From Acinetobacter nectaris CIP 110549 (GTDB taxonomy: Bacteria > Pseudomonadota > Gammaproteobacteria > Pseudomonadales > Moraxellaceae): a stretch of 64,000 nucleotides of DNA. Below the pieces are notes generated by a model. The model saw only the letters and a list, made by a program, of their open reading frames with translations, did not search any database and was not told the origin of the DNA. The stretch is from NCBI RefSeq assembly GCF_000488215.1, contig NZ_KI530712.1:1-64000 (forward strand). The letters are read 5' to 3'. Both the position numbers and the translations under genes were made by a program. Shown one piece after another: positions 29,435 through 47,816 of this stretch (positions are counted from its first letter, which is position 1; the number at the start of each line of letters is the position of its first letter).

Positions 29435-30079
29435 ATGAATATGTTAACAGAATTTCAAAAAAATGCAAAAACAATGAGTACGCGCTTAATTTCTGAATTA
29501 ACGGAAAAGCGCCATCCTGATGTTAAGCGTGATGTTGAGAATATGCTCTCGCAACTGGATTTAGATGTGAGCAGTTTTGCTCATATCTATATTGATACTC
29601 AAAACCGCAAACAAACTGAATATTTGTTAGATGAAGATTTAACAATGACTCTAGTTACTGGTTATAACGTGGTTTTACGCAATCGAGTTATTAAACGCTG
29701 GAAAGAACTAGAAAATCAACAACAACTCCCACAGTCATTTGCTGAAGCACTTCAACTCGCAGCAGATCAAGCGAAGCAACTTGAATTGCAAGCACCCAAA
29801 GTTAATTTCTACGACAAATTAGCAGACCGAACTACCTTAATGAACGCAACTCAAGTCGCTCAAAAAATCAGTATGTCTGCTCAGAAGCTCAATAAGATTT
29901 TAGACACACTCAATGTCTACAGCCATGCCGTGAAGCGTGGTCGTGTGTTTAAGCAATGGTTCATAGATCAAGGCTATGGAGAGCTGAAAGAGACAGATTT
30001 GGGCTACTCACAAGCGATGTTCACGACAAAGGGTGAGCAATGGGTATTTGAGCAACTAACGAGTGAGGGCATTATTTAA
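29435..30079 (+). CDS. Rha/KilAC-type phage antirepressor-like protein
   Basis: 214 residues. The N-terminal part resembles Rha regulatory proteins (MSTRLISELTEKRHPDVKRDVENML with the TEYLLDEDLTMTLVTGYN block). The C-terminal part (about residues 125-212) is a KilAC/ANT-like domain: LMNATQVAQKISMSAQKLNKIL and QGYGELKETDLGYSQAMFTTKGEQWV. Such proteins bind DNA or repressors and shift the lytic decision. The next gene starts at its stop codon (TAATG). Confidence 0.78.
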   Translation: MNMLTEFQKNAKTMSTRLISELTEKRHPDVKRDVENMLSQLDLDVSSFAHIYIDTQNRKQTEYLLDEDLTMTLVTGYNVVLRNRVIKRWKELENQQQLPQSFAEALQLAADQAKQLELQAPKVNFYDKLADRTTLMNATQVAQKISMSAQKLNKILDTLNVYSHAVKRGRVFKQWFIDQGYGELKETDLGYSQAMFTTKGEQWVFEQLTSEGII

Positions 30080-33536: not shown

Positions 33537-34034
33537 ATGAACGCAGTTGCTGAACGACATATTATGCAGGTAATGGATTGGTCTAAGTACAGTCTAGAAG
33601 AGTGGTTATATCAGTTTGGAGCATGGCAATATTCAAGTTCAGGCACTTGTGGGAAAAGTATCAATCCAATTGCTGTAGCTATGGATCAGGCTGTAGTTAA
33701 ACGTAAGAAGTTTAAACTGGGCGTTAAAAAGCAAAGACAAGTTATTGCAGACTATATGGTCAGTGATCTGGATACTCCTAAGCCTAGAAGAAGTAAGTTT
33801 GAATGTAATATTACTGATGATGAAGCAAGAGCAGTACAGCATTTAATTTTAGATATGCAGGGTAAGTCTGAAATATTAGATGAATGGTTAGATGCTGTGA
33901 TTGATCGTTATTTTTATGGGAATTCATGGTCAGAAATTGCAGTCGATAAAACTGTAAATGATGCTAGACAAGATGTTAAGTGTGGTTTGGCCGCTTTACA
34001 TGTTCGTCATCCATTTATCCCATTCAGTAGTTGA
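33537..34034 (+). CDS. Q-type late antitermination protein
   Basis: 165 residues. The N-terminal half has LEEWLYQFGAWQYSS; the C-terminal half has a KFECNITDDEARAVQHLILDM helix and a HTH-like DRYFYGNSWSEIAVDKTVNDARQDVKCGLAAL, the pattern of phage antitermination protein Q relatives. It is the last gene of the early operon, and a strong promoter begins at its stop codon, exactly the lambda Q-pR' layout. It should let polymerase read through the many hairpins of the late operon. Confidence 0.78.
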   Translation: MNAVAERHIMQVMDWSKYSLEEWLYQFGAWQYSSSGTCGKSINPIAVAMDQAVVKRKKFKLGVKKQRQVIADYMVSDLDTPKPRRSKFECNITDDEARAVQHLILDMQGKSEILDEWLDAVIDRYFYGNSWSEIAVDKTVNDARQDVKCGLAALHVRHPFIPFSS

Positions 34035-34190: not shown

Positions 34191-34760
34191 TGCGCGTGTT
34201 TTATCAGTTTAGCCGTAAAACCCCGTCCTTTAGGTCGGGGAGGATGTCAAGAATGAGTACGTTGAAGTTATTCCAATAATTTAAATATCGTATTATAATT
34301 TCCACTAAGATGGTCGTATTATTAATTATACTTAGTGGTTTAATTGGGTTGCGATCATCTACTCCGTTTTGGCTTGGATATCCAAGCGCCTGAAAAGGTT
34401 GCACCGTGATTTAGCAGTGGGCGGAGAACAAATAGGCTCACTTTATGTGGGCTTTTTTATTGCCTGTAGATTTACCACCTACAGAACATGCCATCGAGTA
34501 AAACCCCGAACTAGGGTTATTGGTATGCCCACCTTAATGAATCGAAAGCAAGTAAAGTTAGCCATGCATGTAGGGCGGATGTGATTGTGAGTAGCGGTGT
34601 ATTAGCAGTGGCCGAGCTAATATGTCGAAATATAAGGCCACCAAGTTATTTGAATAAAGGTACAGTTTACTATTCCATCTTAGACAGTTATCCCAGCCTT
34701 GAATTATTGCTGTGTTTTACGTTATAAATTATTGATAAGAACAAATAGAAGAGTGTTTAA
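34191..34760 (+). other. Structured non-coding leader between Q and the first late gene
   Basis: No convincing gene. It holds many paired elements: the CCCCG hairpin at 34221-34240, an 8-bp stem CCACTAAG/CTTAGTGG (34302-34309 with 34331-34338), a 16-bp perfect palindrome at 34372-34387, an outer CTCCG/CGGAG stem (34362-34366 with 34422-34426), and a hairpin plus T6 at 34436-34458. A 23-nt unit around TTAGCAGTGG occurs at 34404-34426 and again at 34594-34616. It may be a large structured RNA or Q-dependent leader. A weak frame starting TTG at 34369 crosses these structures and was not called. Confidence 0.5.
34216..34250 (+). mobile_element. IS200/IS605-type right-end-like hairpin (no transposase)
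   Basis: Run of A, then CCCCG-TCCTTTAGGT-CGGGG, then AGGATGTCAA. This is very like the 3' end of IS605/IS1341-type elements, where it forms the end hairpin and the end of the TnpB guide RNA. No tnpA or tnpB reading frame is present nearby, so it is either a solo remnant or a chance look-alike within the late leader. Confidence 0.35.
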
Positions 34761-34979: not shown

Positions 34980-35077
34980 CTAATAAGTTATCTAGTCGAT
35001 AGCGTAGACATTCAACTAAGAAGTATTTCTTCTGTGTTTAACTATTCATAAATACCAAACAGTTCGTTTTACCATAC

Positions 35078-35116
35078 CCTGCAAGCCTCTTAACAATGCT
35101 CAAATCGCGGGGTTTT
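35078..35116 (+). terminator. Hairpin with T6 in the late leader
   Basis: CCCTGC/GCGGGG arms (one G-U pair) with a long loop, followed by T6. One of the series of intercistronic hairpins in the late operon. Confidence 0.5.
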
Positions 35117-44873: not shown

Positions 44874-45265
44874 TGACACTCACACAGGCTCATACCGCTT
44901 TACTTGAGCGTGTGAGTCAATTCACTGGTATAGATCAAAGTCGTATCTTATACCCACAAAGCAAACAGCCATTTACAGTTCCAGCAAGCGGTCTGTGGTG
45001 TTCGGTTGATATTCTTGCAAGTCAATCGCTGATTAGTGGTATTGCTGATAGCCCTCAGACACGCAGAACATCAATCATTCAAATTACATGCTATGCACGA
45101 CCCAATACAGGGTTAAATGCGCTAAATAGTTTAGTGGATGCTTGGCTAAGTCATTTGGAATATTACCAAATAGAGCAACTCGAATGCCTAAATGGTGAAG
45201 TCGTACAAGATGAGAATACTGATTTCGTCATGCGATATATTCGGGTGCCTTATCGTATTAACTAA
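44870..45265 (+). CDS. Tail terminator-like protein (DUF4128 type)
   Basis: 131 residues: MMTLTQAHTALLERVSQFTGIDQSRILYPQSKQPFTVPASGLWCSVDIL, then TSIIQITCYARPNTGLNALNSLVDAWLSHL. This alpha/beta pattern is that of lambda gpU-like or DUF4128 tail terminator proteins that cap the tail tube. Last gene before the inserted antirepressor module. Confidence 0.7.
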   Translation: MMTLTQAHTALLERVSQFTGIDQSRILYPQSKQPFTVPASGLWCSVDILASQSLISGIADSPQTRRTSIIQITCYARPNTGLNALNSLVDAWLSHLEYYQIEQLECLNGEVVQDENTDFVMRYIRVPYRIN

Positions 45266-45340
45266 ACTTTTAGTTGTATAAGTGAGTTTTACAACTAGAA
45301 CTGCTCGAATAAAACTTGACAGAAATACATAATCTTTTTT

Positions 45341-45479
45341 GCGAAGCCAACCTAACAAGTTGGCTTTTTTAGTGCCTGTAAAAAGGCATTCACCACTGGC
45401 TAGGCTGATCCCCGAACAGAAGATGGTCCTTTGACTGCTCATTTTATCTTCTTGCCAGTGTTCTTTTTTAATGAGCAGT
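45341..45479 (+). ncRNA. C4-like antisense/leader RNA upstream of the antirepressor gene
   Basis: Two short segments recur as complements further on, in interleaved order: CACTGGC (45394-45400) with GCCAGTG (45454-45460), and ACTGCTCATT (45434-45443) with AATGAGCAGT (45470-45479). The last ends next to the GGAG ribosome site of the antirepressor gene. The upstream part also folds into GCCAAC/GTTGGC (45346-45364, with T6) and TGCCT/AGGCA hairpins. This matches the logic of phage P1/P7 C4 RNA, where an antisense RNA processed from the same transcript pairs near the ant ribosome site. The alternative is an H-type pseudoknot in cis. Boundaries are approximate. Confidence 0.6.
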
Positions 45480-45492
45480 TGGAGCATAAAAA

Positions 45493-46035
45493 ATGAATGC
45501 AAAATCAAATTACACACCAATGATAGTACCATTCCATAGTGCTGAATTATTGATTATTGAATACAATGGACAGCCATATACACCGATGAAACCAATCGTT
45601 GAAGGTATGGGTTTAGCGTGGCAATCTCAGCATGAAAAGCTGAAAAATAGGTTCAACTCAACTATCACGGAAATCATGATGGTTGCTCAAGATGGTAAGC
45701 AACGACTAATGACATGCTTACCATTGAAAAAATTATTCGGTTGGATGATGACTATAAGCCCAAATAAGGTTAAGCCAGAATTAAAAGATACCATTATCAA
45801 GTATCAGAACGAATGTGATGATGTTTTGTGGGACTATTGGACAGGTAAATTAAATGCACAAAGAAAGGCATTTGATGAATTTAATAAAATTGAATTTGAT
45901 GACAAATTATCCAAAGCTAAAGCTACTGTCTCTAGCTTAGGTATGCACGCCCGAAAACGCGAAAAGAAAATTAATGAAAAAAGACGAGATAATTGGCTAA
46001 GAATAAATGTTGGTCTTTTAGATTTAGGGGATTGA
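45493..46035 (+). CDS. P22-type phage antirepressor
   Basis: 180 residues. The P22_AR_N domain fills the first two thirds: YTPMIVPFHSAELLIIEYNGQPYTPMKPIVEGMGLAWQSQHEKL and CLPLKKLFGWMMTISPNKVKPELKDTIIKYQNECDDVLWDYWTGK. A charged helical C-terminus follows, with no KilAC or other C-terminal domain seen. Antirepressors inactivate CI-type repressors. It lies inside the late tail operon, between tail terminator and tail tube genes, where it has no structural role. The leader suggests antisense control. Confidence 0.85.
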   Translation: MNAKSNYTPMIVPFHSAELLIIEYNGQPYTPMKPIVEGMGLAWQSQHEKLKNRFNSTITEIMMVAQDGKQRLMTCLPLKKLFGWMMTISPNKVKPELKDTIIKYQNECDDVLWDYWTGKLNAQRKAFDEFNKIEFDDKLSKAKATVSSLGMHARKREKKINEKRRDNWLRINVGLLDLGD

Positions 46036-47372: not shown

Positions 47373-47816
47373 ATGCTGATTAAGATTGAACAACCGCCTA
47401 AAGCTGAGTTCTCACAAGTTTGGTGTGATTATAAAGATGGGGTTCGACTGCTCATTGCTAGTTCAAATAAGCCATCATTTAACCGTGCACTTGAGCTGAA
47501 TAACATGCAAGCCGAACAAGAGCTGCAAGGTGCAAAAGCAATTACAGATGATACAGCAGAAGGCTCTAAGTTAGCCTTTAATCGTGCAATCTCTCATTTG
47601 TTGCTTGGTTGGACTGGTATTGATGCAGAGCCGAACAAGCCGTTTGAATACAGTGCTAAAAATGCTGAGATTCTCTGCACACAAACGCAAGAGTCATTAG
47701 AGATAGCGACCTTTGTTATCAATAAAGCATTTGAACTTGAAAAGGATCGTACAACCAAGCTGGCTGAAGAAGTGGGAAAGTCCTCAGACTCTACGAGCAA
47801 CGAAAGTACGGAATAA
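47373..47816 (+). CDS. Tail assembly chaperone (gpG equivalent)
   Basis: 147 residues: alpha-helical with an acidic C-terminus (EEVGKSSDSTSNESTE). It lies between tail tube and tape measure genes, where the lambda G gene lies, and has a GGAGG ribosome site. A slippery heptamer near its end lets a fraction of ribosomes shift into the downstream frame to make a G-T fusion. The chaperone coats the tape measure protein during tail assembly. Confidence 0.82.
   Translation: MLIKIEQPPKAEFSQVWCDYKDGVRLLIASSNKPSFNRALELNNMQAEQELQGAKAITDDTAEGSKLAFNRAISHLLLGWTGIDAEPNKPFEYSAKNAEILCTQTQESLEIATFVINKAFELEKDRTTKLAEEVGKSSDSTSNESTE
47774..47780 (+). promoter_or_regulatory. Programmed -1 frameshift site GGGAAAG
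   Basis: In the zero frame it reads G GGA AAG, the same heptamer lambda uses in G/T. After a -1 slip the next codon starts at 47780, in the frame that runs open to 48088. That downstream frame has no good start codon of its own. Confidence 0.85.

Follow-up and report, generated by a model that had tools for sequence, protein, structure and literature searches.

In the available part of PMC12197685, the phage RNAs C4 and sar are described as repressing the translation of the antirepressor gene ant. The CI RNA of phage P4 acts on termination by pairing with the sites seqA and seqC, and IsrK is terminated upstream of its antirepressor gene, with partial read-through, and activates the antirepressor (both according to the accessible sections of PMC4825925). 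In a Salmonella prophage, a further antisense RNA, distinct from these, plays a part in superinfection exclusion (PMC7067206, in extract), and in A. baumannii the Group 1 RNAs, which are of C4 type, reach high expression (PMC5320573, in extract). Rfam places C4 (RF01695) in one clan with its targets, c4-a1b1. RNAs of the C4 family are cut out of a longer transcript by RNase P. A further Rfam family, int-alpA (RF02996), presumably lies between integrase and alpA genes, as its name implies; in the extract of PMC12370729 it is named in a table and in one sentence. A literature search on int-alpA found no described function and no paper naming RF02996; the founding paper, which may propose a function, fell outside this search. 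Among the best-ranked papers on small or antisense RNAs with antirepressors, judged by title and the start of the abstract, none dealt with the element described below.

This element lies in a prophage of Acinetobacter nectaris, within a 64-kb stretch of DNA that was analysed as a whole (the window). Its upstream neighbour is a tail terminator gene (PHROGs) ending at 45265, and the antirepressor gene that it precedes is followed by a 107-aa ORF and a tail tube gene (Table 1). From 5′ to 3′, the element consists of P1, CTAG, P2, CGAA, P3 with a 19-nt apical loop and a T-run, directly after which the first base of the target (45470) is found; the Shine-Dalgarno sequence GGAG lies 8 nt 5′ of the antirepressor ATG. 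A preliminary description of this DNA had rightly recognized the ORF as a P22-type antirepressor, as is borne out by a Pfam match to P22_AR_N of 163.3 bits against a cut-off of 30.7. It had also pointed to two pairs of complementary segments, A with A′ and B with B′, and both proved exact, i.e. CACTGGC (45394-45400) with 45454-45460, and ACTGCTCATT (45434-45443), which is the reverse complement of 45470-45479. Its interpretation of both pairs as antisense contacts holds for B, which is part of the antisense loop, but not for A and A′, which close the hairpin of the RNA as its basal stem and belong to its terminator-like end. Similarly, B′ was thought to abut the ribosome site; pairing does take place there, yet it extends to 15 contiguous base pairs including three G-U pairs (CTTTGACTGCTCATT, 45429-45443, with AATGAGCAGTTGGAG, 45470-45484) and thus covers the GGAG instead of merely abutting it.

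Table 1. Features of the antirepressor leader region, in window coordinates.
Feature	Position	Strand	Basis
T1, terminator-like hairpin (AAGCCAAC/GTTGGCTT) and T-run	45344-45370	+	own scan
P0, small hairpin GCCT...AGGC between T1 and the RNA	45374-45387	+	by eye
Predicted antisense RNA, three-way-junction hairpin ending in a T-run	45393-45469	+	covariance model
P1 closing stem, 5′ arm (segment A), CACTGGC	45394-45400	+	covariation; exact reverse complement of 45454-45460
P2, short hairpin; then CGAA at 45413-45416	45403-45413	+	alignment
P3 stem, 5′ arm	45418-45425	+	alignment
Antisense stretch in the P3 apical loop, including segment B	45429-45443	+	loop-leader pairing
P3 stem, 3′ arm	45445-45452	+	alignment
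P1 closing stem, 3′ arm (segment A′)	45454-45460	+	covariation; exact complement
T-run TTCTTTTTT, terminator-like end (T2)	45461-45469	+	read from sequence
Target in the leader, including Shine-Dalgarno GGAG (45481-45484)	45470-45484	+	pairing, comparison
Antirepressor gene, 180 aa, P22_AR_N	45493-46035	+	ORF list, Pfam

T1 is situated about 22 nt upstream of the antisense-RNA element, and both hairpins are missing from the standard terminator scan upstream of ant. Hairpins of the GCCTG..CAGGC type like P0 recur in relatives (by eye). A T-run followed by TGCCTG is a recurrent motif found at four places in the window (45365, 41413, 48652 and 34453, all +), with six overlapping matches against 0.21 expected. 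The promoter scan listed no sigma-70-like promoter on the + strand between 44600 and the element; TTGACA at 45316-45321, for which no fitting second hexamer was seen by eye, was discarded as a candidate. A palindrome, AGTTGTA-N11-TACAACT at 45272-45296, was noticed by eye here and in locus L002 and could be an operator. Elsewhere in the prophage, the gene at 33537-34031 gives a weak match to a Q-type antiterminator (27.6 bits, cut-off 26), so that late transcription could pass both hairpins. The window further contains a second antirepressor-like gene upstream (29435-30079, +) with Rha plus KilAC/ANT domains, as well as two Rfam RNAs upstream of the terminase and late genes, namely Pseudomonadales-1 at 34463-34622 (+, 98.4 bits) and abiF at 35077-35113 (+, 54.5 bits).

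The B pairing attains a score of 32, whereas none of 200 leaders shuffled by mononucleotide scored above 23. An arrangement of a 7-nt inverted pair, a T-rich tail and a 10-nt inner match to the next 38 nt occurs only once in the 64-kb window, at 45394 on the + strand, with none on the - strand and none in 40 simulated 64-kb strands (order-1 Markov). Folding energy was rejected as proof of an RNA, as the z score of the 78-nt RNA is -1.17 (25 of 200 shuffles as good); for the 235-nt leader it is -2.91 (1 of 200). The case rests on comparison, not on energy. When the loop was matched to both strands of the window, one other place also scored 32, on the - strand at about 47440-47460 (+ coordinates), opposite the tail chaperone gene 47373-47816. 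The coding strand of this gene carries at 47443-47457 the word TTCGACTGCTCATTG, which is nearly a class I loop word (see below); the longer exact word CGACTGCTCATTGCTAG occurs, among the fetched loci, only in two copies of the same prophage, and a blastn search in phages gave no match. This loop-like word is either a decoy or a coincidence. In the minimum-energy fold, an extra copy of ACTGCTC, at 45300, is also able to pair with the target, and some 7-nt loop word is present within 170 nt upstream in 7 of the 38 elements introduced below, window included. Since four different words are involved, no rule was read into these copies.

Relatives occur in the genus. A covariance model made from 10 sequences identified 36 places in 31 of 175 genus genomes (E ≤ 0.01), source genome included. 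From 40 model matches, L147 (= L002) and L048 (= L047) were dropped, giving 38 elements with 34 distinct loop-plus-leader pairs. Their downstream proteins carry AntA (16), Rha (9), P22_AR_N (8) and KilA-N (4) domains, and in addition ORF11CD3 (14), P63C (4) and KilAC (1), while the PHROGs names are mostly those of anti-repressors and Rha-like regulators. Unrelated antirepressor families thus follow the same RNA. Searches by blastn with the leader revealed the element without a P22-type gene in five Acinetobacter phage records, Ab105-2phi and Gln among them. In these two and in Acinetobacter phage TRS1, the gene behind the element is Rha, and tail genes adjoin; on an Acinetobacter plasmid the element precedes an antirepressor. 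Hence, contrary to the preliminary description, the location of an antirepressor among tail genes is not unusual, all the more as Salmonella phage Oslo harbors arc-like and ant genes between the genes for the major tail protein and the tape measure. A terminator-like hairpin was detected by our own scan within 110 nt upstream of 36 of the 38 elements, at a distance of 17-23 nt in 34 and of 64-65 nt in two of them. Another model, R1, applied to 36 sources, gave matches with E ≤ 0.01 only in the window, L127 and L132, and none at the 30 antirepressor loci outside this group among these sources. At one antirepressor locus, L061, the leader contains at about 2916-2990 an unrelated long hairpin (AGAGCCTG...CAGGCTCT) with a T-rich tail and no Rfam match, which is perhaps an independent leader device.

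The elements display three loop classes, each with matching targets. Class I loops, such as ACTGCTCATT or ACTATTCATT, face targets of 13-18 bp that reach into or over the Shine-Dalgarno sequence, with the exceptions of L158 (9 bp) and of L155 and L156 (none). Class II loops contain CATGTTC or CATATTC; their matches span 9-11 bp and are located either immediately behind the T-run or at the start codon, and the first of these sites is positioned upstream of the Shine-Dalgarno sequence, not over it. The class III loop (L167, L173) is CTACCGTC. For 30 of the 34 distinct pairs, the real leader is equalled by no more than 1.5% of 200 shuffled ones; the remaining four, L155 (90.5%), L156 (42.5%), L166 (5%) and L167 (14.5%), are devoid of clear leader complementarity. 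Six further elements gave values of 0 to 2.7%. Orphans with no clear target nevertheless keep the loop word, as seen for L155, L156 and L166 and for one type found in three contigs (L233, L273, L278). Loops fit their own leaders better than those of other elements: over all 34 pairs, orphans included, the mean score is 26.65 against 19.25 after permutation, within class I (22 pairs) 29.82 against 26.53 and within class II (11 pairs) 21.27 against 18.77, with none of 2000 permutations as high in any of the three cases. Duplexes across classes are weaker, with mean energies of -20.6 (own) versus -10.0 kcal/mol (cross-class) for class I and -11.5 versus -6.0 kcal/mol for class II.

Covariation was assessed in alignments of only those elements that have a target, i.e. 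A4 (class I, 21 rows) and A5 (class II, 10 rows). L155, L156, L166 and class III L167 were left out, as were the repeats L128, L144 and L146; L152 was kept even though it repeats the pair of L150, L149 is the window itself, and row L132 of A5, shifted by one column in P3, was left so. The T-run region is T-rich in the rows of both alignments (by eye). In class I, 96.0% of cells are paired, eight pairs are changed on both sides and the covariation score is 0.212, each value being reached by none of 500 shuffles. The changes on both sides affect 5 of 7 pairs in P1, 1 of 3 in P2, 0 of 8 in P3 and 2 of 14 in the loop-target helix, and sliding the partners lowers pairing from 96.0% to 36-54% of cells. 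In class II, the loop-target helix is 100% paired, with one of eight pairs changed on both sides, in two rows; such changes also occur in 3 of 6 P3 pairs and in 0 of 6 P1 pairs, and 16 of 500 shuffles reach this count of pairs changed on both sides. Further pair types are no more numerous than in shuffles (61 of 500 as high for class I, 458 of 500 for class II). At the start-codon site of class II, 98.7% of cells are paired and covariation is weak (12 of 500 shuffles as high for the score, 172 of 500 for pairs changed). The preliminary description had proposed to look for covariation in related prophages, and compensatory changes do occur there, both in the stems and in the loop-target helix. 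As the alignment rows are related, independent events are fewer than the cell counts, and the existence of three loop classes with matching targets is the stronger argument.

Comparison of sequences establishes the anatomy of the element, its covariation, the specificity of cognate pairing and the link to several unrelated antirepressor families. On these grounds we consider it likely that a compact antisense RNA, about 77 nt long, is encoded here and silences translation of the antirepressor by loop-leader pairing. The RNA (45393-45469) would share its strand with the antirepressor gene and lie immediately ahead of it. Transcripts ending at its T-run would yield a free hairpin displaying the antisense loop, while those that read through would carry the matching target over the Shine-Dalgarno sequence of the antirepressor. 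Pairing of loop and target would then block ribosome loading and thereby switch the antirepressor off, which the RNA probably keeps silent until needed. Release would require an excess of target over RNA, or the mismatched target of a phage with another loop class. The RNA is presumably made, and we infer that it acts in trans, as C4 does, from the T-run, the orphans that keep their loop, and the analogy with C4. It would also repress translation, and the loop classes would represent immunity groups.

Loop and target are part of one transcript, and the first base of the target falls inside the T-run or right behind it in the aligned A4 and A5 sequences (by eye). This would also suit a switch acting exclusively in cis, in which the P3 loop of a read-through mRNA folds back into a pseudoknot that hides the Shine-Dalgarno sequence, with no free RNA involved. 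Such a switch seems rather unlikely, given that the hairpin ends in a T-run, that orphans keep the loop without a clear target, and that the class II loop matches a second site at the start codon, of weak covariation, that would be needless for a single contact in cis. The two tandem terminator-like hairpins and the weakly matching Q-type antiterminator gene (27.6 bits, cut-off 26) could instead be taken as signs of transcription control, i.e. loop-leader pairing that alters termination at T1 or T2 and not ribosome loading, for which pairing of the P4 CI RNA with seqA and seqC sets a precedent (PMC4825925, accessible sections). The class I duplex, however, reaches into or over the Shine-Dalgarno sequence and thus points to translation, so that regulation of termination appears quite unlikely. 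Finally, the low folding z score of -1.17 and the other place in the window that equals the leader in pairing with the loop would be expected of an ordinary terminator between tail genes with a fortuitous complementarity to the leader. This is scarcely credible, as none of 2000 permutations attained the level of cognate pairing in any of the sets tested, and the slid-partner controls drop from 96.0% to 36-54% of paired cells; the comparative data already contradict it.

Silencing by a free antisense RNA, the reading preferred here, may extend far beyond Acinetobacter. Of 369 genomes of the class, 39 contain RF02996 matches. From 51 places, 30 int-alpA loci were taken, of which L185, L191, L194 and L201 were left out, as the element was not found there by the script. 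For the 26 others, parsed roughly and with stem bases included in some loops, the fit of loop and own leader is 14.96 compared with 13.41 when permuted (0 of 2000 as high). At least 120 viral stretches carry the core motif CTAGGCTGATCNCCGAA, and among the matches listed, the hairpin forms at 66 of 80 motif places versus 140 of 3200 random positions. After removal of 12 repeats and 2 loops shorter than 5 nt, these 66 parsed hairpins gave 52 distinct pairs among the matches listed, with a fit of 14.85 against 11.03 permuted (0 of 2000). Seven of the 52 belong to the own group of the window; without them, the values for the remaining 45 pairs among the matches listed are 13.67 and 11.02 (0 of 2000).

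Many leaders, moreover, offer the loop two separate sites. Among the viral matches listed, this applies to 49 of 52 leaders (permuted 20.6, maximum 30) and, at a stricter threshold, to 24 of 52 (permuted 4.5, maximum 10). If the own group is excluded from these listed matches, the counts are 43 of 45 (permuted mean 18.4, maximum 27) and 18 of 45 (mean 2.4, maximum 8), respectively. Two sites were likewise present in 24 of 26 leaders of the int-alpA genome set (permuted maximum 24) and, at the higher threshold, in 21 of 26 (maximum 16). In the Acinetobacter set the lower threshold is not informative (34 of 34; permuted mean 31.5, maximum 34) and the higher one gives a modest excess (30 of 34; mean 21.2, maximum 28). 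The 50 genes behind the viral hairpins among the matches listed are diverse, including Rha (4), AntA (3), DUF6387 (3), HNH_3 (2), recombination endonuclease VII (2) and VapE-like (2) genes, with no family matched by more than four of these 50. Six of 13 viral loci scanned passed the Rfam int-alpA model. Cronobacter phage ES2 (L131) contains at about 2000-2095 the core motif and a hairpin without a T-run (by eye) ahead of an HNH endonuclease gene; its loop TTTCGTCG faces CGACGA and GACGA in the leader, and Rfam gives no int-alpA match for it.

On balance, these data incline us to regard int-alpA-like hairpins as a single, very large class of antisense RNAs of phages and satellites that follow a common three-way-junction design. 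In this class, the loop would pair with two repeated sites in the leader, the first immediately behind the hairpin and the second at the Shine-Dalgarno sequence or start codon. The gene that follows would vary, from antirepressors to HNH or recombination endonucleases, helicases and genes of unknown kind. Changes in the loop would go together with changes in the target, creating new specificities, and thus immunity groups, by the swap of a short word, and target-less orphans may guard the lysogen against other phages. The findings point to a likely function for int-alpA, an Rfam family for which we found none described. They also suggest that RNA silencing of antirepressors, known from C4 of P1/P7 and sar of P22, is common across phages, and that the silencing RNA travels as a module before unrelated antirepressors. 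Because pairing between the loops of one class and the leaders of another is poor, sequence data could reveal the immunity groups of phages.

How does the element relate to the families named at the outset? The preliminary description had called it C4-like. The antisense logic, directed against an antirepressor leader and co-evolved with it, is indeed shared, but the suggested check with the Rfam C4 model (RF01695) gave no match at E ≤ 10 for 45200-45560. Two positive controls did score, namely the phage P4 immunity region (74.9 bits), where the match is what we take to be the CI RNA, and a separate C4-type locus in the own genome (C1:1066698-1066785, L134; 64.3 bits), in whose 3-kb surroundings no antirepressor was recognized by eye among the ORFs. 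Membership in C4 was therefore rejected. The nearest Rfam family is int-alpA, which the window copy matches over model positions 1-71 with 26.2 bits, below the gathering cut-off of 35.8. Among 28 relatives scanned (9 element-bearing loci plus 19), four exceed this cut-off (L047, L163, L141, L157) and nine fall below it (L127, L050, L130, L150, L162, L159, L161, L145, L139); the window's own copy, L149, included with the 19, was not listed there at E ≤ 0.1. When the own genome was searched with RF02996, nothing matched at E ≤ 10 either. Since cmscan applied directly to the leader yields the 26.2 bits, this miss was taken as a presumable loss in the search's first look.

As with C4 of P1 and P7, the small structured RNA predicted here is encoded ahead of an antirepressor gene, in the same orientation, and can pair with the leader of this gene, its loop matching the ribosome site. 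It differs in its 7-bp closing stem with adjacent T-run and in its single antisense loop, as C4 has both a′ and b′ (PMC5320573, in extract). No second antisense loop of this type was found besides that of P3, and the same P2 variants occur with both loop classes (by eye), which means that P2 does not set the target. The P4 CI RNA is similarly an antisense RNA of phage immunity whose own transcript contains sites complementary to it, but acts on transcription termination (both PMC4825925, accessible sections), and its region matches the C4 model, unlike the window element. P22 sar and Gifsy-1 IsrK are also small prophage RNAs controlling an antirepressor, although IsrK, in the accessible account, activates translation, in contrast to the silencing proposed here. 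The A. baumannii Group 1 sRNAs are phage-derived and C4-like and come from Acinetobacter too, yet they are assigned to the C4 motif (PMC5320573, in extract). With int-alpA, the element has in common the closing stem, CTAG, the short P2, CGAA, P3 with its variable loop and the T-run. It differs from this family in its place between tail genes and before an antirepressor, its neighbours being the tail terminator gene and the antirepressor and not integrase and alpA, and in class I loops and targets that are longer than those of the int-alpA loci compared. While a certified member of neither family, the element is a relative of int-alpA working like C4.
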